Origin: Dehalogenimonas sp. W
GTDB taxonomy: Bacteria > Chloroflexota > Dehalococcoidia > Dehalococcoidales > Dehalococcoidaceae
Assembly: GCF_037094495.1 (NCBI RefSeq)
Contig: NZ_CP146612.1
Location: forward strand, 186,001-250,000
DNA length: 64,000 nucleotides
Reading direction: 5' to 3'
The notes beneath the pieces were generated by a model. It was not told the DNA's origin, ran no database searches, and saw nothing but the letters and a program-made list of their open reading frames with translations. Both the position numbers and the translations under genes were made by a program. Positions 10,848 through 20,190 of the stretch are shown here, piece after piece. Every line of letters begins with the position of its first letter. The first letter of the stretch is position 1.

Positions 10848-11408
10848 TTGATTGATGAAAAGGCCATCGCCGCCGCAGTAAAAACCATGCTCCAGGCTAT
10901 CGGGGACGACCCGGAACGTGAAGGGCTCAGGGAAACTCCGGAGCGGGTCGCCCGGATGTACACCGAAATCTTCGCCGGCATTGACAAGAATCCGGCGGAT
11001 GACCTGAAAGTCGGCTATGAGCTGGGCCACCGCGAGATGGTCATCCTCAAGGATATCCCCTTCCACTCCATGTGCGAACATCACCTGCTGCCTTTTTCCG
11101 GCGTGGTGCATATCGGTTATGTCCCCGGTACTGACGGCCGTGTTGTCGGCATTTCCAAACTGGCGCGGGTGGTAGAAACCGTCGCCCGCCGGCCGCAGAT
11201 TCAGGAACGCATGGCCACCGAAATTGCCGATGCCATCGTGGAAGGCCTAAACCCTGACGGTGTCGGCGTGGTCATCGCCGCCGAGCATATGTGTATGACC
11301 ATGCGCGGCATCAAGAAACCGGGCTCCAAAGTCCTCACCTCCGCCCTTAGAGGCGGCTTCGCCAAACGCGCCGCCACCCGCGCCGAGTTCATGTCGCTGA
11401 TACAATAA
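10848..11408 (+). CDS. folE: GTP cyclohydrolase I
   Basis: Converts GTP to 7,8-dihydroneopterin triphosphate, the first step of tetrahydrofolate synthesis and, in some lineages, queuosine synthesis. Zinc and active-site residues are in CEHHLLPF and in [21 protein letters not shown] at the end is also conserved. Length 186 is standard. The start is TTG at 10848 with a GGAG upstream that overlaps the end of the preceding gene. It is last in the five-gene run; an AACCGG/CCGGTT hairpin follows the stop. Confidence 0.96.
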
Positions 11409-11721
11409 CCGGTTTTCATCGCCGGTTGGCAGTTGCCGGTTAGGTGTATTTGATTTCACCACCGAAAAGCGAAGGAAACGACTCTGGAGTTCCAGCTTTG
11501 ACTTAGAATGGCCTCTAACGTAAGCCGCCTTTGATGGTCAATCAAATTCAATTGGAACAATTTTACTATTTTTCTCCGCCTATTTTGACCAAAAAGGCCA
11601 CCGCTATGCTTAATCGGAATCAAGTTTTACTGAATGCCGACGGGTTGGTTTAAGGTGTTGTATAAGGCACTGGTGTTCTTGTATATGAGTCATAAGTATA
11701 ACCGACCACGTCCGGATTGTC

Positions 11722-11740
11722 AATGGGCAAATGTCCCATT
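11722..11740. promoter_or_regulatory. Dyad AATGGG-N7-CCCATT, possible regulator operator
   Basis: A perfect 6-base inverted repeat with a 7-base centre (AATGGGCAAATGTCCCATT). The GGG...CCC geometry resembles operators bound by some NarL/DosR-type regulators (family knowledge). It lies about 55 bases upstream of the predicted -35 of the sensor-kinase promoter, a position suitable for an activator. The binding partner is inferred. Confidence 0.4.
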
Positions 11741-11794
11741 TTCCTGATTCTGCCAATTATTGTTAGCTGTATCCAAAAAATCCAATAACAGAGA

Positions 11795-11823
11795 TTGACA
11801 CCGGCTGCCGCGAGTCATATGCT
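11795..11823 (+). promoter_or_regulatory. Promoter of the NarL-type sensor kinase/regulator pair
   Basis: Perfect TTGACA at 11795-11800, 17-base spacer and TATGCT at 11818-11823. The leader is about 80 bases before the ATG at 11912, which has its own GGAG. Confidence 0.5.
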
Positions 11824-11911
11824 GTGTACGCAGAGTCAATCGTTATCTGCAGATGTCCGAGAATATTGAAATTTGTAGTTGACTAATGGGCGTCTGATCT
11901 GGAGCGATTAG

Positions 11912-13042
11912 ATGAAAATCGGCGGCAGGTATTTTCTGGGCGCATACCGGGCACTTGCAATCATAGTGGCCGCCGCCCAGTTACAATCTTTCCAGCCAGC
12001 CGCCAATCTGCCGACTGGTTCCTTGATATTGCTGGTCGCAGCTCTTTACAGCGTATTAAAACTGGGCCAACCGGCTGACTGGTATTACAAAGGCAGGATA
12101 TGCTCTGTCTTACTGGTTCTGGATCTGCTTTTTTCCGGTCTGTTATTATTCCTGACCGGAGGACTGGAAAGCCCCTTCATCCTGTTTTCATTCTCGCCGA
12201 TATTGGCCGCCTCACTCTTTTTGGATATTCGTATCACCGGCATCACGGCATCTTTTTCCATCGCAGCGATTCTTAGTTCCCATCTTATCAATCCGTGGTA
12301 TTCTCATCTTCTTACCATGGCGGATTTTTCATTCCTGCTGGTCTACTTCATTGCAGCCTGTCTGGTTGCCATCCTTCCCTATCTGATCAACACCAACCTG
12401 AGGCAGGAACTCCAGAGTAAATTCATCATGACGGAACGGCAACGGCTGTCACGGGAAATCCATGACGGTATGGCGCAAACACTTTCCGGTTTGTGCTGGC
12501 AAACGCAGTTACTGGAACAACGTCTACATAAGATGGGTTTGGACCTGGTTGAGGTTGAAGATCTTATCCGGTTAACCGAGGATGCCCGCCGTGACGCCCG
12601 GGAGTCTTTGGAACTCTTGCGTGAATACACCGGCAACGGCGAATTCATTTCCAATCTGCGTCAATACCTCCAACACCTGAAACAAAGCTCCGGTATCATC
12701 TTTGAATTACGTATTAATACAGGACAACGGCACTTAACGCCCACCGCTGAGATAGAATTACTCCGTATTTGTCAGGAAGCCTTGAACAACGTCCGCAAAC
12801 ATTCAGCCGCCAATCATGTCACCATCGTTATTGAATCTGAAAACAACCACCTGACCATTACCATTACCGATGATGGGCGCGGTTTTGATTCCATTGCCTT
12901 TTACCGGTGCGCCCCCAACAATCATTCACACGGACTTGCGATCATGCAGGAACGCGCTGAATCCATCGGCGGGCGTTTCAGAATCATCAGCCTGCCGCTA
13001 AAAGGAACTGAAATTCAGGTAGTCGTCCCGACCCAGCAATAA
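11912..13042 (+). CDS. Membrane sensor histidine kinase, NarL/DesK-type (HisKA_3)
   Basis: A 376-residue membrane kinase. About six hydrophobic helices fill residues 8-165 without an obvious extracellular loop, so the signal may be membrane-borne or intracellular. The dimerisation/phosphoacceptor motif REIHDGMAQTLSGL places the His near residue 183, typical of HisKA_3 kinases. The ATPase domain has EALNNVRKHS (N box), DDGRGFD (G1) and HGLAIMQERAESIGG (G2). It is followed after 13 bases by its likely partner response regulator. It lies directly upstream of the SipW-type surface cluster, which it may control. Confidence 0.92.
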   Translation: MKIGGRYFLGAYRALAIIVAAAQLQSFQPAANLPTGSLILLVAALYSVLKLGQPADWYYKGRICSVLLVLDLLFSGLLLFLTGGLESPFILFSFSPILAASLFLDIRITGITASFSIAAILSSHLINPWYSHLLTMADFSFLLVYFIAACLVAILPYLINTNLRQELQSKFIMTERQRLSREIHDGMAQTLSGLCWQTQLLEQRLHKMGLDLVEVEDLIRLTEDARRDARESLELLREYTGNGEFISNLRQYLQHLKQSSGIIFELRINTGQRHLTPTAEIELLRICQEALNNVRKHSAANHVTIVIESENNHLTITITDDGRGFDSIAFYRCAPNNHSHGLAIMQERAESIGGRFRIISLPLKGTEIQVVVPTQQ

Positions 13043-13055
13043 CCCGGAGGGTAAA

Positions 13056-13700
13056 ATGATTAAAATACTAATCGCCGACGACCATGCAATCGTGCGTAAC
13101 GGCCTAAATAATGTGCTTAAAGATGAACCTGATATGCAGGTCATCGGTGAAGCCTGTGACGGGGAAGAAACGGTGCGTCAGGCGCTGAAGTTAAAACCCG
13201 ATGTCCTGCTTCTGGACATCTTAATGCCCCAGGGCGGTGGTCTAACCGCCCTGGCTAACATTATTGATAAACTACCCACGGCAAAAGTGCTGATTTTGAC
13301 TATCTCCGACCGGGAGGATGATCTTTTCAAGGCTCTCAGATACGGCGCCCACGGTTATCTGCTCAAAGAGGCCGGCATAAATGAAGTGGTTGACGCGGTC
13401 CGCCGGATTGCCGCGGGTGAAGTTATTTTATCATCCCAAATGGTGGCTAATCTGGTATCTGAGTTCCGCCAGAAAAGCCATAACGGTGAAGAGCTGAACC
13501 TGAGCAGCCGGGAAATGGAAGTACTGAGATACGTCGGGGAAGGCTGCACCAACAGCGAGATTTCAGCTAAGTTATTCATCAGTGAAAGCACGGTGCGTAC
13601 TTACCTGAGGCGCCTTCTGGAAAAACTTCATTTACGTAACCGGTCAGAAGCAGTAGCTTATGCCACCCGGCATCACGTCAGCTTTAACCATAATCCCTGA
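13056..13700 (+). CDS. NarL/FixJ-type response regulator
   Basis: A 214-residue DNA-binding response regulator. The receiver domain has acidic residues in ADDH, phosphoacceptor Asp in LLLDILMP (about residue 55) and Lys in LLKEAG. The C-terminal LuxR-type helix-turn-helix begins at LSSREMEVLRYVGEG and contains TNSEISAKLFISESTVRTYL. A GGAGG precedes the ATG. It is cotranscribed with the kinase and ends 333 bases before the first AAWTDEI-motif protein. An 8-base hairpin follows. Confidence 0.94.
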   Translation: MIKILIADDHAIVRNGLNNVLKDEPDMQVIGEACDGEETVRQALKLKPDVLLLDILMPQGGGLTALANIIDKLPTAKVLILTISDREDDLFKALRYGAHGYLLKEAGINEVVDAVRRIAAGEVILSSQMVANLVSEFRQKSHNGEELNLSSREMEVLRYVGEGCTNSEISAKLFISESTVRTYLRRLLEKLHLRNRSEAVAYATRHHVSFNHNP

Positions 13701-13742
13701 ACCCACAATATCCCTGATTATTCCAAACGGTTGTTTCCGCCA

Positions 13743-13768
13743 CGGCGGCAGGCCTTATTGTGCCGCCG
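13743..13768 (+). terminator. Hairpin after the response regulator, possible terminator
   Basis: CGGCGGCA (13743-13750) pairs with TGCCGCCG (13761-13768) around a 10-base loop. Only a short, weak T run (CCTTTC) follows, so termination may be partial or factor-dependent. Confidence 0.45.
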
Positions 13769-14032
13769 CCTTTCAACCCACCGTTCTCTTCCCTCCTAGA
13801 TGTGATAAGACTATACCTAATCATTATCAACCATATTTTGTCATCATTTTGCTTGCACCGAAAGTTTACTTTTGTCGTCTAAATGACTACCCCAAAATCA
13901 CTATTGAAACGACTTGTTTGCCCCAATAGTACTGCCTATCATTGAAATAGGTTGAGAATTACAACCCCGGCCTTGGTCGATCTGTCGTGGAAACGACTGG
14001 GGGCCTGGAAAAGTAAATGGAGGAGAAAGAAA
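13769..14032 (+). other. Leader region of the SipW-type surface cluster
   Basis: No gene is seen. Two GAAACGACT copies occur, at 13906-13914 and 13990-13998. The second is part of a GTCGT-GGAA-ACGAC hairpin (13984-13997) only ~35 bases before the start codon. A weak promoter candidate is TTGAAA (13904-13909), a 17-base spacer and TAGTAC (13927-13932). The hairpin with its tetraloop would lie in the 5' leader of the mRNA. Confidence 0.4.
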
Positions 14033-14719
14033 ATGAAAAAGATCGGACTTCTTTTAATCACTCTGGTTATGGCCCTTGGTGCTTTGGGCGTCGGTTACGC
14101 CGCCTGGACGGATGAGATTTATATCAGCGGTACAGTTCAGACCGGTGACGTTGACATCAACATCACTGAGCTGTCCGGAACAGAGGTCTGGAAAGACCTG
14201 GATACTGATGCCCTGGTGTACATTCACACTGTCAATGGTGAACCTGCAGTTGGGCAACCGACACGCCCCGACCCTGGCTTGAAAGTAGCCGAAGCAACCG
14301 CGGTTGCAGGAGAGGACCCGGATGAAGCTGTATTCACGTTTACTAACCTGTTCCCGTGTCAGGATTTCTATGTTGATATGTTACTAACGTATGAAGGGAG
14401 CATTCCGGCAAAAATCAACTTCGCCTGGATAGACTCTGAAGATCAATGGCTGGTTGACCTGTGGAATCAGGGGTGGGATTCCAATAACCCGAACGCAGGC
14501 GGTATCTGGATGGAAGCCTTTGCGGTTGTAAACGATGTAAAGGTACCGGTTGATCTCGGTACCCAGGTACATGAGGGCGACACTATCTATCTGCAACTGC
14601 ACATTCATATCCCGCAAGATAACGCATTCATGAATCTGTCAGGTTCGTTCACCGGCGGTTTCCAGGTAATCCAGTGGAATGAATATCCTGACGCATCCGT
14701 CATCCCGACGGTTTCTTAA
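14033..14719 (+). CDS. SipW-dependent-type exported protein 1 (TasA/camelysin-like)
   Basis: A 228-residue exported protein. The start at 14033 follows a strong GGAGGAG. Its N-terminus (two Lys, a ~17-residue hydrophobic core rich in Leu and Gly, then GVGYAAWTDEI) resembles signal peptides cut by SipW-type peptidases, as in TasA and camelysin. The mature part is acidic and predicted beta-rich; NLFPCQDFYVD and the later EGSIPAKINF are shared in modified form with the next gene, as is the C-terminal QWNEYP. No sortase motif or catalytic residues are seen. It is the first of three such proteins; the next begins 22 bases downstream. Surface-fibre function is inferred. Confidence 0.75.
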   Translation: MKKIGLLLITLVMALGALGVGYAAWTDEIYISGTVQTGDVDINITELSGTEVWKDLDTDALVYIHTVNGEPAVGQPTRPDPGLKVAEATAVAGEDPDEAVFTFTNLFPCQDFYVDMLLTYEGSIPAKINFAWIDSEDQWLVDLWNQGWDSNNPNAGGIWMEAFAVVNDVKVPVDLGTQVHEGDTIYLQLHIHIPQDNAFMNLSGSFTGGFQVIQWNEYPDASVIPTVS

Positions 14720-14741
14720 TCTTTCTGTATAGGAGCCTGTC

Positions 14742-15428
14742 ATGAAAAAATTAGGCATGATCTGCTTAACAAGCATCTTGGTTTTGGGTGGTTTGGGTGT
14801 CGGCTACGCTGCCTGGACGGATGAGATTTACGTTGGGGGTACGGTTCAGACCGGCGAGCTAAGTTGGCAATTTACCGGTTGTAATCTATTGGATGATAGT
14901 GAACCAGTGAATCCGGGGGGGGACTATCCTACCACGGATCCGGACTACACAAGTTTACCCGGGTTTATTTACAATCCTGAGGTGAACGACTTCTTTTGGA
15001 AATTGGACAAAAATGTTGCCTGGGGTGAATGCGGGAGCGTTGACTTGGATCAAGATGGAGATAATGAAACTCTCCAAGTCACATTCCATAATGTTTACCC
15101 TTGTAACTTCAATGAGCTGTCCTTTTACCCCATGAATACTGGTACCATTCCGCTTAAAATCGATCATCTGGTAATCAATGGGCAGTGGATTACTACCGAC
15201 TCAAAAGTTGAGTTCGATTTCAACCAGGACGGCCAGACGGATTTTGAACTCTGGTGGAATGAGCAATCTTTCGGCCAGCAAATTGAACCGAATGATAGGG
15301 GAACCGAACACAGCATATGGTTCCACACCCTTCAACCCTGTCCTCAAAACAGCATCTTCACTTTTACTATCACTATAGTTGCCGTTCAGTGGAATGAATA
15401 TCCGCTCCCTGCTCCTACTGTAGACTAG
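14742..15428 (+). CDS. SipW-dependent-type exported protein 2 (paralog of 1)
   Basis: Also 228 residues, and a clear paralog of the preceding protein. It shares the signal region (GVGYAAWTDEIYVGGTVQTG), NVYPCNFNEL, the GTIPLKIDHL segment and the C-terminal QWNEYP, while the middle has diverged. Two Asp-rich stretches (DLDQDGDNE and DFNQDGQTDFE) look like calcium-binding DxDxDG loops of the dockerin/EF-hand kind, which the first protein lacks. It is probably secreted and folded as a beta-sandwich. An AGGAG precedes the ATG. An 11-base-pair hairpin follows the gene. Confidence 0.75.
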   Translation: MKKLGMICLTSILVLGGLGVGYAAWTDEIYVGGTVQTGELSWQFTGCNLLDDSEPVNPGGDYPTTDPDYTSLPGFIYNPEVNDFFWKLDKNVAWGECGSVDLDQDGDNETLQVTFHNVYPCNFNELSFYPMNTGTIPLKIDHLVINGQWITTDSKVEFDFNQDGQTDFELWWNEQSFGQQIEPNDRGTEHSIWFHTLQPCPQNSIFTFTITIVAVQWNEYPLPAPTVD

Positions 15429-15448
15429 GAAGTGCTAAAACGTCAATC

Positions 15449-15474
15449 GGCGGGGCGGTATTGACCGCCCCGCC
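15449..15474 (+). repeat. Strong 11-bp hairpin between exported proteins 2 and 3
   Basis: GGCGGGGCGGT (15449-15459) and ACCGCCCCGCC (15464-15474) form a perfect stem with an ATTG loop. There is no T run, so it is more likely an RNA-stabilising or polarity element, or a partial terminator, that sets relative expression of the genes on either side. Confidence 0.6.
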
Positions 15475-15489
15475 TGAAGGCGGCAATAA

Positions 15490-16119
15490 GTGAAACGCAA
15501 CAAAAATCGCCTGACAAGTAAATTAGCCGTCCTGGGTCTGGTTCTGATTATTGGACTGGGATCCATGACCATCGGCACTGCGGCCTGGACTGATGAGATA
15601 TTATTCAGCGGCACGGCTACGACAGGCAGTTGGTGTACGGAACAGGAAGGCAGCCCCGGTTTTTGGAAGAATGTAGAAAAAACTCACAAATACACTTGTC
15701 GTCAGTTGCTGGATTTCTGCGCCACGGTTGATGCCGGCTCGCGTTGGTTGATACCTGATTTAGCTTGTCACTATGGCATCATAGATTGGGTGGACGTCTT
15801 AAAAGTCATTGATGACGGTGAAGGCGGAACCGCCAGGCAAAAATTCCTTCGTCAATATATTTGTTTACGTTTGAACGTTACTGCCGGTCGGCTATTCCTT
15901 ACTACCACACATCATATCTACAGTAATGACCCGGTTAACCCGTATCACTTTGACCCGGGCAATTACCTCGGTCTTACCCCATCGCCATCCTCGCCTCCGG
16001 TCACCCTGCAACAGATAATAAATGCAATAGAGGATAAATACCTGGGTGCGTCCCCGACCGGTGCCCAGTACACCATTATGCAGAAACTCTGTGAAGCGCT
16101 GAACACGCTTTTAGTATAA
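15490..16119 (+). CDS. SipW-dependent-type exported protein 3 with PGFWKN motif
   Basis: A 209-residue exported protein starting at GTG 15490. Its N-terminus has the same signature (hydrophobic core, then GTAAWTDEILFSGTATTG) as the two upstream proteins, but the mature part is different: it opens with a Cys and then GSPGFWKN, a motif seen in many extracellular proteins of unknown role, followed by several Cys residues (YTCRQLLDFC, LACHYG, YICLRL) that could form disulfides. The C-terminus is a helical region ending KLCEALNTLL. No ribosome-binding site is obvious; the 11-bp hairpin lies just upstream. Confidence 0.7.
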   Translation: MKRNKNRLTSKLAVLGLVLIIGLGSMTIGTAAWTDEILFSGTATTGSWCTEQEGSPGFWKNVEKTHKYTCRQLLDFCATVDAGSRWLIPDLACHYGIIDWVDVLKVIDDGEGGTARQKFLRQYICLRLNVTAGRLFLTTTHHIYSNDPVNPYHFDPGNYLGLTPSPSSPPVTLQQIINAIEDKYLGASPTGAQYTIMQKLCEALNTLLV

Positions 16120-16130
16120 TTTTTACTCTA

Positions 16131-16159
16131 TTGACATCTATTGTCTACAGTATTACATT
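16131..16159 (+). promoter_or_regulatory. Promoter of the signal peptidase gene (leaderless)
   Basis: Perfect TTGACA at 16131-16136, 17-base spacer and TACATT at 16154-16159. The expected transcript start is at or next to the ATG at 16166, which has no Shine-Dalgarno sequence, so the mRNA is probably leaderless. Confidence 0.6.
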
Positions 16160-16165
16160 TTGACT

Positions 16166-17332
16166 ATGGTCTCTAATGCACGGGCAGGCATCTGGTTTCT
16201 CCTGATTATCGTAATAGGCATCTACGCTTACATTAATTTTTTCCCTGAACGCATATTCGGCACCTTTGCATCCACTTACATAGTCCAGCCGGCGCTTTGG
16301 TTTCTGCTGATGCTGACGGTGCTTCTGATATTACCGCGACAGAGCATCAAAGGTGAATTCCGGGTCGGGACGCCCGTTTTTGGCATAGCCATCATCCTCG
16401 GTATGTTTCATCTGTCCATTCAGCTCATCGCCGGGCTATTTACCGGCTTCGGTGACAGTCCGTATAATTTTGATCCCCGCGGCATTATTTTTAACTTTGT
16501 CTTCGTCATTGCTGCCCTCGTTGGTATGGAAGTTGCCCGTGCCTGGCTCGTACGGCACCTGGCTAAAAAACATGTCACCGCCGCCATATTTCTTTCCGGG
16601 CTCGTGTTCGCTCTTTTGGTGCTGCCGGTTTCCAAACTAACCGGTTTGGCATTCACCACAGAATCAATCCAGACCGTCAACGGGGACATCATCCCCGCTT
16701 TGGCCCAGAGCCTGTTGGCAACCGTGCTGGCATACTATGGCGGTGCACGGGCTTCTATCGTTTACCTGGGCATCCTCCAGGCCTTTTGGTGGTTTTCTCC
16801 GGTTTTACCGGATTTTTCCTGGTCCATAAAGGGTTTAATCAACACAGTCATCCCGATTATGGGGTTTGTATTGGTTCAAAATTATGTCAATAACCTGCGG
16901 CACCGGATATCCCGCCGGGCGCCCTCCAATGATTCATCTTTCCCCCTGGGGTGGGTGGCAGTAACGACTATCTCGGTTGTCTTTATCTGGTTTTCAGTCG
17001 GCATTTTTCCGGTCAGACCTTCCCTCATTATCAGTGGCAGTATGACTCCGGAATATAACGTCGGAGACGTTGTAGTCATCGCCGAGGTCCCCATCGTCTC
17101 TATTAAGGTAGGGGATGTCATCCGTTTCCAGGAAGGCGAGATTGCCGTCATGCACCGGGTGGTCGCCATTGACGAAATTGGCAAAGACCTGATCTTCACT
17201 ACGAAAGGAGATGCTAATGATGCCGTTGATTCGGCACCGGTCGTAGCAGAGCAAGTAAAAGGCAAAGCAGCCTTCACCGTGCCCAAGATAGGCTGGATAG
17301 CTATTTTTGTCCGCAGCCTGTTTGGACTTTAA
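16166..17332 (+). CDS. SipW-type signal peptidase I with N-terminal multi-span membrane domain
   Basis: A 388-residue membrane protein. The C-terminal ~120 residues are an S26B-type signal peptidase: catalytic Ser in SGSMTP, general-base His in MHRVVAID (where bacterial LepB has Lys), and the GDAN turn with VKGKAAF further on. This His form is found in SipW, archaeal and ER peptidases. The first ~250 residues contain about seven helices not present in SipW and of unknown family; the ALVGMEVARAWLVR helix weakly recalls CPBP proteases but lacks a clear EExxxR motif. Presumed substrates are the three AAWTDEI proteins upstream. The ATG at 16166 is chosen over the TTG at 16160 on promoter position. 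Confidence 0.82.
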   Translation: MVSNARAGIWFLLIIVIGIYAYINFFPERIFGTFASTYIVQPALWFLLMLTVLLILPRQSIKGEFRVGTPVFGIAIILGMFHLSIQLIAGLFTGFGDSPYNFDPRGIIFNFVFVIAALVGMEVARAWLVRHLAKKHVTAAIFLSGLVFALLVLPVSKLTGLAFTTESIQTVNGDIIPALAQSLLATVLAYYGGARASIVYLGILQAFWWFSPVLPDFSWSIKGLINTVIPIMGFVLVQNYVNNLRHRISRRAPSNDSSFPLGWVAVTTISVVFIWFSVGIFPVRPSLIISGSMTPEYNVGDVVVIAEVPIVSIKVGDVIRFQEGEIAVMHRVVAIDEIGKDLIFTTKGDANDAVDSAPVVAEQVKGKAAFTVPKIGWIAIFVRSLFGL

Positions 17333-17412
17333 TATGTTATTTTACCCAATATGTCGTTTTGGGTATTGCATTCCCGTTTCTGATGCTTTATCCTGACTTG
17401 AGGTAACTCGTT

Positions 17413-19020
17413 GTGAAACTGATAAATACTCTTTGGAAAGCCTTGACCAAATTACCCGGCGGTACATTCCACCGGGTGGTATCGGTGATTTTTTGTGCAC
17501 TGTTCATCATCGCCGCCGCGGGATTTGGTGCCGCGAACATCATCCCCCTACAGCATGATGTTACGGTAGACCTGCTTACTTACCAGCATCAAGGCGAGTA
17601 CGATTACACCGCCTACCTCAAACCATCCTATCTGCTTGGGCCAGACCCGGTTGTGTACGAAGAACCGGAACCACCGCCCAATCCAACCTACTTCACCAAC
17701 ATCATAAACGATATCAGCTTTACTTATTCCTTCACGACCGATACCAACACGATATTGCCCAATGTCATAAAGGTCACGGCAATTTTGGAAAACGCTGATT
17801 TGTGGCAGAAAGAAATTCCGCTACATGAATCCGATTTGGGTATTCAAGGCCGGAATAAAATGGATATTGAATTCACATTGGGATTTCAGGCAATCCAGGA
17901 GACCTTTAACACAATTGATAAAGAGCTTAAAATCACCACCAATGACCGCAAGGTCACTTTAATGGTCACCATCCTGGCTGGAGACCAGGAGTTCTTCACC
18001 CAGACATTGGAGATCATCATCAACAAGTCATATGTAGAAATCAGCAATGAGCGTCTTAAAACGGACTCTCTCAACCTGGGCTTGTTTGACTATGCTGTCA
18101 ACCTGATGCCTAATACTTTGTTTGAAGCTACCGCTCTTTTTCCGCCGGCGCTTTATGTTCCGCCCCCACCTCCCCCGGCACCGGTTGTCACAACAATCGG
18201 CCCGGAGGGTGTCCTGTTCACCAAATTGGTGGATCGGATGGATTTCACCTTTGCGTATACGCTGGATTCTGACAAACCCTTAAGCAATGTAACCAGTTCG
18301 GTAAGAATATTCGCCACCATAGAAAATCCCCAATTTTGGACCAAGAAGGTTGAGCTAATACCGTTAATGACCAGGACAGGAGATTTTACGGTTTCTTTTA
18401 CGCTAAAACCGGAGGACTACTTACAATTACTGGAGGATATCAGAGGAGAAACCGGGACCAGCGCAGAGACTTACTACTTTACGGTGGTATCAGAGGTCAA
18501 CATCAGTGCCGATTCTGAATACGGCCCCATTAATGAGTCTTTTACCGCCACTTTGAAGACCGCTGTTTCCGGCGGAGTGCTCAATTGGGGCGAGACACTG
18601 ATAAATACTCAGGACGGAACAATTCAAACCACTGAGGTGCAGGACAGTTATTTTATCGCTGAATGGACATCGCTTTTAGTCGCCGATGCCCGTATCCTGT
18701 TCCTTTGGCTCAGCATTATTTCCCTAGTACTTGCCGCTCCGTTGGTCTTCTTCTATTTTAAGCACCGTCCTCCCGGCCTGCCGGAAGCCGACAAAGAAGC
18801 TCGGCAAGCTAAACGCCGCTTTAAGGGCATGTTGACTGAAGTTTCTTCCCTTCCGGCTATCAGAGAGTCCGATGTCATTGTCAGTATCCAATGCCTTGAA
18901 GATCTGGTCAATATTGCTAATGAGATGGGCAAGACCGTGTTGTACCATCAGGACCACCGCTGTCATTCTTATCAGGTATTGGATGATTTCACCCGCTATG
19001 AATATCAAACTCTGTGTTAG
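17413..19020 (+). CDS. DUF5305-like membrane-anchored protein with two tandem repeats
   Basis: A 535-residue protein with an N-terminal membrane helix (about residues 22-45), a large extracellular region and a second helix near residues 435-458, leaving ~75 residues in the cytosol. The outside part has two related units, about residues 50-215 and 216-405. Each starts with a Y/F-D-Y segment and a Pro-rich stretch, then a strand pattern (ISFTYSF / MDFTFAYTL). The cytosolic tail with LEDLVNIANEMG and YQVLDDFTRYEYQ resembles the tail of archaeal DUF5305 proteins, which occur beside SipW-type peptidases (recalled, not searched). The start is GTG with GAGGT upstream. Function unknown; a scaffold for the exported proteins is one possibility. 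Confidence 0.65.
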   Translation: MKLINTLWKALTKLPGGTFHRVVSVIFCALFIIAAAGFGAANIIPLQHDVTVDLLTYQHQGEYDYTAYLKPSYLLGPDPVVYEEPEPPPNPTYFTNIINDISFTYSFTTDTNTILPNVIKVTAILENADLWQKEIPLHESDLGIQGRNKMDIEFTLGFQAIQETFNTIDKELKITTNDRKVTLMVTILAGDQEFFTQTLEIIINKSYVEISNERLKTDSLNLGLFDYAVNLMPNTLFEATALFPPALYVPPPPPPAPVVTTIGPEGVLFTKLVDRMDFTFAYTLDSDKPLSNVTSSVRIFATIENPQFWTKKVELIPLMTRTGDFTVSFTLKPEDYLQLLEDIRGETGTSAETYYFTVVSEVNISADSEYGPINESFTATLKTAVSGGVLNWGETLINTQDGTIQTTEVQDSYFIAEWTSLLVADARILFLWLSIISLVLAAPLVFFYFKHRPPGLPEADKEARQAKRRFKGMLTEVSSLPAIRESDVIVSIQCLEDLVNIANEMGKTVLYHQDHRCHSYQVLDDFTRYEYQTLC

Positions 19021-19105
19021 CTGTTGTTGAATAAGCCCTGGCAAGTCCCCCTCTCCCGGAAGTTGATATTTATCCCCCCTAGATGAGAAGCCCCCCGCCC
19101 CATGC

Positions 19106-19111
19106 TATAAT
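19106..19111 (+). promoter_or_regulatory. Extended -10 box of prfA (leaderless)
   Basis: TGCTATAAT, with TATAAT at 19106-19111 ending 8 bases before the prfA ATG at 19120. No good -35 is seen. There is no space for a ribosome-binding site, so prfA is probably translated from a leaderless mRNA. Confidence 0.6.
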
Positions 19112-19119
19112 GTGAGCTT

Positions 19120-20190
19120 ATGCTAGACCAACTTGAAAACATTGAAAGACGTTACCAGGAAATAGAAGAAGCCATTGCCGACCCTTCGGTCGGTGCGGAC
19201 ATTGCCCAGCTTACCAAACTCACCAAAGAGCGTTCCTCCATGGAAAGGCTCGTTGAGCTTTACCGCAAGTATAAAAGCGTCGCCCAGGCACTGCAGGACA
19301 CGGAACAGTTGATTGAAACCGAGTCTGATGAAGAAATGCGGGATATGGCCAAAGAGGAACAGCGCAGCCTCAAAGCGCAACTGGAAACCCTGCACGAAGA
19401 CATGAAACTGGAACTGCTGCCCAAAGACCCGAACGCTGAACGCAACATCATCATTGAAATCCGGGCGGGCACCGGCGGCGATGAGGCCAAACTGTTTGCC
19501 GGCGATCTGTTCCGGATGTACACCCGCTACGCTGAGATGAAAGGCTGGAAAGTGGAAATCATTGACCTGACTGAACAGTCAGGCGGCACCTTTAAAGAAG
19601 CCGTCATTGAAATTGACGGCGAAGAAGTGTATTCCCGGCTCAAATATGAAAGCGGCGTCCACCGGGTACAACGCGTACCGGTAACTGAAGCCGCCGGCCG
19701 CATCCACACTTCCACTGCAACGGTAGCCGTCATGCCGGTGGCGGAAGACATTGAGGTGGATATCAAACCAGAGGATTTAAGGATTGATATCTACCATTCC
19801 GGCGGCGCCGGCGGACAAAACGTCAACAAGGTAGCCACGGCGGTGCGCATGACCCATCTGGCCAGCGGCATCGTGGTTGCCTGCCAGGAAGAGCGCTCCC
19901 AGCTCAAAAACCGCCAGAAGGCCATGTCGGTACTCAAAGCCCGTCTGCTGGCCATGGAACAGGAAAAGCAGGATAAGGAAATGACTGACAACCGGCGGGC
20001 TCAGGTGGGATCAGCGGACCGCTCGGAGAAAATCCGTACCTATAACTATCCGCAAGACCGCCTGACCGACCACCGCATCGGCCTGTCCGTCCACAACCTG
20101 CCCAAGATTATGGAAGGGTATCTGGACGATGTCATTGATGCACTGGCCACCGATGAACAGGCCCGGCTCCTCCAGTCCGCCGGGCTATGA
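19120..20190 (+). CDS. prfA: Peptide chain release factor 1
   Basis: RF1 recognises UAA and UAG stop codons and triggers peptidyl-tRNA hydrolysis through its GGQ motif, seen here in [11 protein letters not shown] near residue 230. The stop-codon-reading domain lies before it, and the N-terminal helical domain begins [16 protein letters not shown]. At 356 residues it is full length. It overlaps prmC by four bases (ATGA), which fits since PrmC methylates the GGQ glutamine. The ATG follows a -10 box by 8 bases. Confidence 0.98.

Follow-up and report, generated by a model that had tools for sequence, protein, structure and literature searches.

A probable horizontally acquired gene module for a TasA/AbpX-type extracellular filament in Dehalogenimonas sp. 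W

We analysed a 64,000-nucleotide stretch of the Dehalogenimonas sp. W genome (contig NZ_CP146612.1, positions 186,001 to 250,000; hereafter the window), in which an earlier note had described five genes on a single strand at 14033-19020 as a SipW-type surface-protein system. All five were found on the + strand: three substrate genes, S1 (14033-14719), S2 (14742-15428) and S3 (15490-16119), a signal peptidase gene (16166-17332) and a gene for a DUF5305 membrane protein (17413-19020), separated by gaps of 22, 61, 46 and 80 bases when the peptidase is counted from the ATG at 16166. The module begins further upstream, with a histidine kinase (11912-13042) and a LuxR/NarL-type response regulator (13056-13700) on the same strand. 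We consider it likely that everything from the kinase gene to the DUF5305 gene (11912-19020) is a single module, regulated and horizontally acquired, for an extracellular filament of the TasA/AbpX type. The homology of S1 and S2 to AbpX and TasA, the conserved gene set, the catalytic motifs of the peptidase and the probable acquisition were computed here.

The hydrophobic N-terminus, the AAWTDEI motif and the Gly-Thr stretch that the earlier note had pointed out are shared by all three substrates (GTVQTG in S1 and S2, GTATTG in S3). S1 and S2 (228 residues each) are indeed clear paralogues, with 27% identity over the whole mature protein (pairwise E 5e-9). The signal of S1 would comprise residues 1-23, with the mature protein starting at A24-W25; the predicted mature starts of S2 and S3 are A24 and A32. 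Both proteins carry QWNEY at the C-terminus, both are acidic in their mature form (32 D+E versus 5 K+R each), and strong ribosome-binding sites precede both genes. As single sequences, neither S1 nor S2 gave a credible match in Pfam or NCBIfam, and S1 retrieved nothing credible from the PDB; a match of S2 to DUF5640 at 0.12 was rejected as chance.

A profile built from 11 Dehalococcoidia relatives matched AbpX in the PDB at 1.2e-8. We also built a profile from 44 mature substrates, taken from the gene clusters with a similarly fused peptidase described below. Compared with all PDB sequences, it matched AbpX (2.7e-19 and 1.2e-13) and TasA (5of1, 1.1e-5; the 8aur fibre, 1.2e-5), every other match being 0.009 or worse. 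The starts of the 44 proteins were set by alignment to S1, and open reading frames lacking W or F at the relevant column were left out, so that the Trp found at mature position 2 in 44/44 describes this group rather than every TasA-like open reading frame in these loci. T14, G15, Q191 and N193 were nearly invariant, and in the solved AbpX chain Trp is likewise residue 2. We conclude from these profiles that S1 and S2 are distantly related to TasA and to AbpX, an archaeal filament protein; this bears out, for these two substrates, the proposed TasA-like relationship. TasA and AbpX form donor-strand filaments (PMC9674648; PMC11952670). By homology, S1 and S2 would each consist of a beta-sandwich with an acceptor groove and an N-terminal donor strand. 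They also combine an aromatic P2' residue at the predicted cleavage site with an adjacent S26B peptidase. For TasA, the aromatic P2' residue (Phe) is reported to make a poor site for ordinary signal peptidase, hence the dependence on SipW (PMC10269814).

The peptidase had been recognized from its SGSM and HRVV motifs as S26B-type (ER/archaeal-type), and it matched TIGR02228 with 89.7 bits (cut-off 51.85; 1.7e-25 at residues 266-380) as the sole such match in the genome. The Ser-His-Asp motifs lie at 290-293 (SGSM), from 330 (HRVV) and at 347-349 (KGD) in the numbering from ATG-16166. Moreover, the catalytic part matched SEC11A (3.8e-7), with SGSM, HRV and KGD aligned. This part is preceded by a domain of about 260 residues with at least six hydrophobic segments, in which E124, R127, N174, Y202, Q207 and W211 (numbered from the TTG at 16160) are conserved. 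The invariant Glu-x-x-Arg and several further invariant polar residues of this multi-transmembrane domain (encoded within 16166-17000) belong to no known family; the idea of a CPBP-type intramembrane protease was dropped, as E124 and R127 are spaced ExxR and Pfam gave no support. Promoter-like sites at 16131-16166 and 19083-19120 would place transcription starts on or beside the ATG of the peptidase gene and of prfA, which hints at leaderless transcripts.

In a set of 294 genomes from the class, the peptidase had matches at E 1e-20 or better in ten, not counting the window; most matches also spanned the multi-transmembrane part, and that in genome G168 covered the catalytic part only. When we scanned 84,980 species genomes with the multi-transmembrane domain alone, 25 loci were obtained, from Dehalococcoidia, clostridial lineages (Heliobacterium and Desulfovirgula among them) and two Archaeoglobales. 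TasA-like open reading frames were present in 24/25 loci (the exception, L081, starts at a contig edge) and a DUF5305-like gene lay directly downstream in 23/25, the exceptions being L098 (contig end) and L093 (a divergent variant). At least 12 of the 25 loci have response regulators upstream. The conserved co-occurrence that the earlier note had proposed as a check in Chloroflexota was thus strongly confirmed and extends to Bacillota and Archaeoglobus. The same gene set in clostridia and Archaeoglobus probably represents a shared, barely described route to extracellular filaments.

Several loci showed variations of this design. Three clostridial loci encode an extra TasA-like protein after DUF5305 that ends in a transmembrane stretch (L086:11256-12068, L088:4087-4905, L089:11180-12070); in L086 and L089 this stretch is preceded by a PKTGG-like motif, and the protein might be a wall-anchored base subunit. 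More distant class members (L050:7398-11681, L051:7703-12024, L052:6476-12384) carry fused-type peptidases together with substrates that have LWYEDL..TANVST, or something similar, in the signal region; in the place of DUF5305 they have another C-terminal membrane protein. Some records titled Deltaproteobacteria, L083 (JAUVYB010000010.1) for example, are put by the genome set in the order of the window, and the title of L083 looks wrong.

The third substrate had been described as unrelated to the others beyond its signal. S3 (209 residues, GTG start) was 41% identical to S1 within the first ~56 residues only (pairwise E 3e-9). The similarity spans the signal and ends ~20 residues into the mature protein; the mature domain indeed looks unrelated. 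After the shared N-terminus, S3 carries a GSPGFWKN domain; the mature protein contains six Cys. Homologues of S3 occur in two other fused-peptidase clusters (L080 and L085), and in a further one (L079) its slot is filled by a GYWKNH-domain protein with the same N-terminus. Across 400 Chloroflexota genomes, the S3-type domain was detected in the window only, apart from two weak matches (E about 5e-4) of its GFWKN part to the C-terminus of a 653-residue secreted protein in two genomes of the sister genus. That protein ends in a GYWGNWDNHW domain (L105:28-1989, L106:28-1989). A single-sequence search of S3 against the PDB gave nothing credible, and a structure model from four sequences was mostly helical but unreliable, with a predicted local distance difference test score (pLDDT) of 46.

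The gap between S2 and S3 contains a perfect GC-rich hairpin on the + strand (15449-15474; GGCGGGGCGGT-ATTG-ACCGCCCCGCC), which lacks a T-run, occurs as a single copy in the genome and gave a z-score of -4.3 for 15429-15489. It is possibly an expression divider between S1/S2 and S3. The GTG start behind this unique hairpin, as opposed to the strong ribosome-binding sites of S1 and S2, suggests low expression of S3. In B. subtilis, TapA has an N-terminus in common with TasA and its own complete domain, donates its N-terminus and initiates the filament without being a repeating subunit, and a TasA:TapA ratio of 100:1 has been reported (PMC10151520). The anatomy of S3 suggests a TapA-like part, the resemblance being one of design and not of sequence: with the same strand but a different body, S3 could donate but not accept.

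DUF5305 had been tentatively assigned from a two-repeat membrane protein, and PF17231 matched this protein with 83.7 bits (cut-off 29; 1.6e-23) in two stretches, with two transmembrane segments. An AlphaFold2 model (mean pLDDT 83, predicted template-modelling score 0.43) was good locally but not in the placement of domains, and consisted of an N-terminal transmembrane segment, two beta-sandwich repeats, a transmembrane segment near 428-446 and a small alpha/beta tail of ~90 residues, which would be cytoplasmic from its predicted orientation. The single sequence retrieved nothing credible from the PDB. Using Foldseek, the model gave one PDB match under 0.001, with very low TM-scores. VIA-align returned transglutaminase C-terminal barrels and the biofilm protein RbmA (Z 8.2-8.3; RbmA 8.3) at the level of a common arrangement; the luminal subunits of the eukaryotic signal peptidase complex were absent from the fold-match list, which excludes nothing. 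The adjacency of DUF5305 genes to S26B peptidases, mentioned in the earlier note, held in all six DUF5305-bearing genomes among 61 related ones. Since the constant partner of DUF5305 is the peptidase and not one substrate type, the protein may serve processing, anchoring or assembly.

The module appears to have entered the genome between folE (10848-11408) and prfA (19120-20190) and would then extend from 11409 to 19119. The host genome consists of one contig of 1,772,240 bases with 29 reductive-dehalogenase matches and belongs to a family of two genera, which fits a Dehalogenimonas-like organism. The guanine-plus-cytosine (GC) content of the module (7.7 kb) was 48.1%, compared with 55.0% in the window as a whole, where the 2-kb bins of the module were the lowest. 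In seven congeners, neither the peptidase nor the substrates nor DUF5305 was found. In the congener closest by prfA, folE and prfA are separated by just one unrelated gene, which encodes 242 residues, and the stretch preceding prfA differs in the remaining ones. The low GC content, the position between folE and prfA and the absence from seven congeners indicate that the module was probably acquired; that all seven congeners lost it is less likely. In a peptidase tree, the window branched beside the Dehalococcoidia group with modest support (80/73), so the donor was probably a related lineage, although this placement is not firm.

The kinase has four hydrophobic segments and matched Pfam HATPase_c (2.4e-14) and HisKA_3 (7.4e-9), and the regulator matched Response_reg (5.7e-24) and GerE (3.3e-19). 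Identities to the proteins at the same position in two other clusters were 49% (G041) and 36% (G019) for the kinase, and 58% and 44%, respectively, for the regulator. Since both genes occupy the same position in the G041 cluster, we assign them to the module, as its probable sensor and the probable regulator of the filament genes.

We propose that the kinase and the LuxR-type regulator turn the filament genes on. S1 and S2 would be exported via Sec and cut just before A-W by the S26B peptidase, a dedicated enzyme being needed, in this proposal, because ordinary signal peptidase handles a site with Trp at P2' poorly. Each subunit would then insert its freed strand, W-T-D-E-I-x-x-x-G-T-V-x-T-G, into the groove in the beta-sandwich of the next, giving rise to a filament. 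S3, comparable to TapA, may initiate or cap the filament, with its WKN domain displayed at one of the ends. The DUF5305 protein, with two extracellular beta-sandwiches between its two transmembrane segments, may sit by the peptidase as a platform or anchor. The earlier suggestion of a system that builds the cell surface or a matrix fits better as an accessory filament or matrix; the absence of the module from seven congeners weakens the notion of a builder of the cell surface itself.

Several observations weigh against such a filament system. S1 has no Pfam family, the strongest Pfam match among the 11 family members was unrelated (0.0089), and the NCBIfam model of the SipW-cognate signal (TIGR04088) matched weakly, at best at 0.0049 among these members. 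S1 and S2 are thus remote relatives of known families and, with no match over a curated cut-off, are related to the TasA/camelysin-type models of Pfam and NCBIfam without being members. The peptidase stayed under the SipW equivalog cut-off (NF046067, 73 bits versus 190). As its model is unusable, S3 might still have an acceptor groove. Finally, the fold matches of DUF5305 were generic and immunoglobulin-like only, and DUF5305 also occurs beside peptidases in genomes without AbpX-type substrates. A role of DUF5305 as the filament base is one that we put forward tentatively, as somewhat short of probable. The protein could instead be an accessory subunit of the signal peptidase, a processing partner like the luminal partners of SEC11, which is compatible with a filament of S1 and S2 and which we regard as possible, at low confidence. 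Every DUF5305 gene in the 61 related genomes adjoins an S26B peptidase, four of them where AbpX-type substrates are lacking, but many S26B peptidases do without DUF5305 (peptidase in 18/61 genomes, DUF5305 in 6/61), and the best matches of the model were generic beta-sandwiches that include RbmA (Z 8.3), maybe by mere common arrangement.

S1-S3 might also be separate secreted surface proteins or adhesins that use a common peptidase and signal and do not polymerize, forming a loose surface coat. The strong divergence of the mature proteins (27% identity at most) would fit, as would the one to six very different substrates of clusters elsewhere and the other substrate types that accompany SipW-type peptidases elsewhere in the order. 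We consider such a coat unlikely: conservation runs beyond the signal and takes in ~20 residues at the start of the mature protein, the donor strand in TasA, which S3 has too although its body looks unrelated, and the nearest solved relatives are filament subunits. That the island is a recent passenger, silent or decaying in its present host, is very unlikely, even though it is present in just one of the genus's eight species and its GC content is under that of the host, because all genes are intact open reading frames with their catalytic and structural motifs kept, and strong ribosome-binding sites are retained at S1 and S2. Returning to the filament, a more specific version of it is rather doubtful in our judgement: that S3 is a donor-strand-only end piece, its TasA-type strand joined to an unrelated WKN domain that acts as a functional head at one end of the filament, and that DUF5305 and the fused peptidase make up a dedicated membrane machine coupling cleavage to assembly, in a pathway common to Chloroflexota, Bacillota and Archaeoglobales and distinct from chaperone-usher systems, sortases and type IV pili.

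Judged by sequence, the module would be of the TasA-SipW kind with homologous subunits. As in TasA-TapA-SipW of B. subtilis and CalY/TasA-SipW of B. cereus, an S26B peptidase adjoins substrates with an aromatic P2' residue. S1 and S2 are homologous to TasA by profile, and the partners share an N-terminal strand, one of them not being the filament body. Unlike in TasA-TapA-SipW, the peptidase is fused to a multi-transmembrane domain and accompanied by DUF5305 and the module's own two-component system; S3, which is end-piece-like, has no sequence relation to TapA beyond design, and no Pfam camelysin match was obtained here. The closest solved relatives of S1 and S2 are AbpX, from the archaeal bundling filaments of Pyrodictium and Pyrobaculum, in which the W...TG N-terminus and the N-x-GTIP motif are likewise present, whereas the present module, compared by protein sequence, is found in a bacterium, an organohalide-respiring member of the Chloroflexota. 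The DUF5305 protein belongs over cut-off to the same Pfam family as the genes known beside S26B peptidases and shows the same adjacency. Its extracellular domain is duplicated here and in other Chloroflexota-type loci (535-570 residues) but single in Bacillota (~370 residues), and the proteins of Archaeoglobales measure ~300 residues. The W-K-N core of GxWKN/GYWKNH surface proteins is common to S3 and the L079 protein; unlike others of this type, S3 carries the domain alone behind a TasA-type N-terminal strand.

A literature search on TasA or SipW in Dehalococcoidia or Chloroflexota returned no paper on such a system among the ten best matches, and no mention of DUF5305 was found in the papers searched. 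Bacteria like Dehalogenimonas lack an ordinary cell wall. If the proposed function is true, the module would provide a single species of the genus with a way of attaching to partners or surfaces, a trait of relevance to bioremediation consortia. A single operon design of TasA-like subunits, an S26B peptidase fused to a multi-transmembrane domain and DUF5305 recurs in two bacterial phyla and in one order of archaea. This design places DUF5305 in a concrete setting and leads to the prediction of filament subunits that go unrecognized by current annotation libraries.

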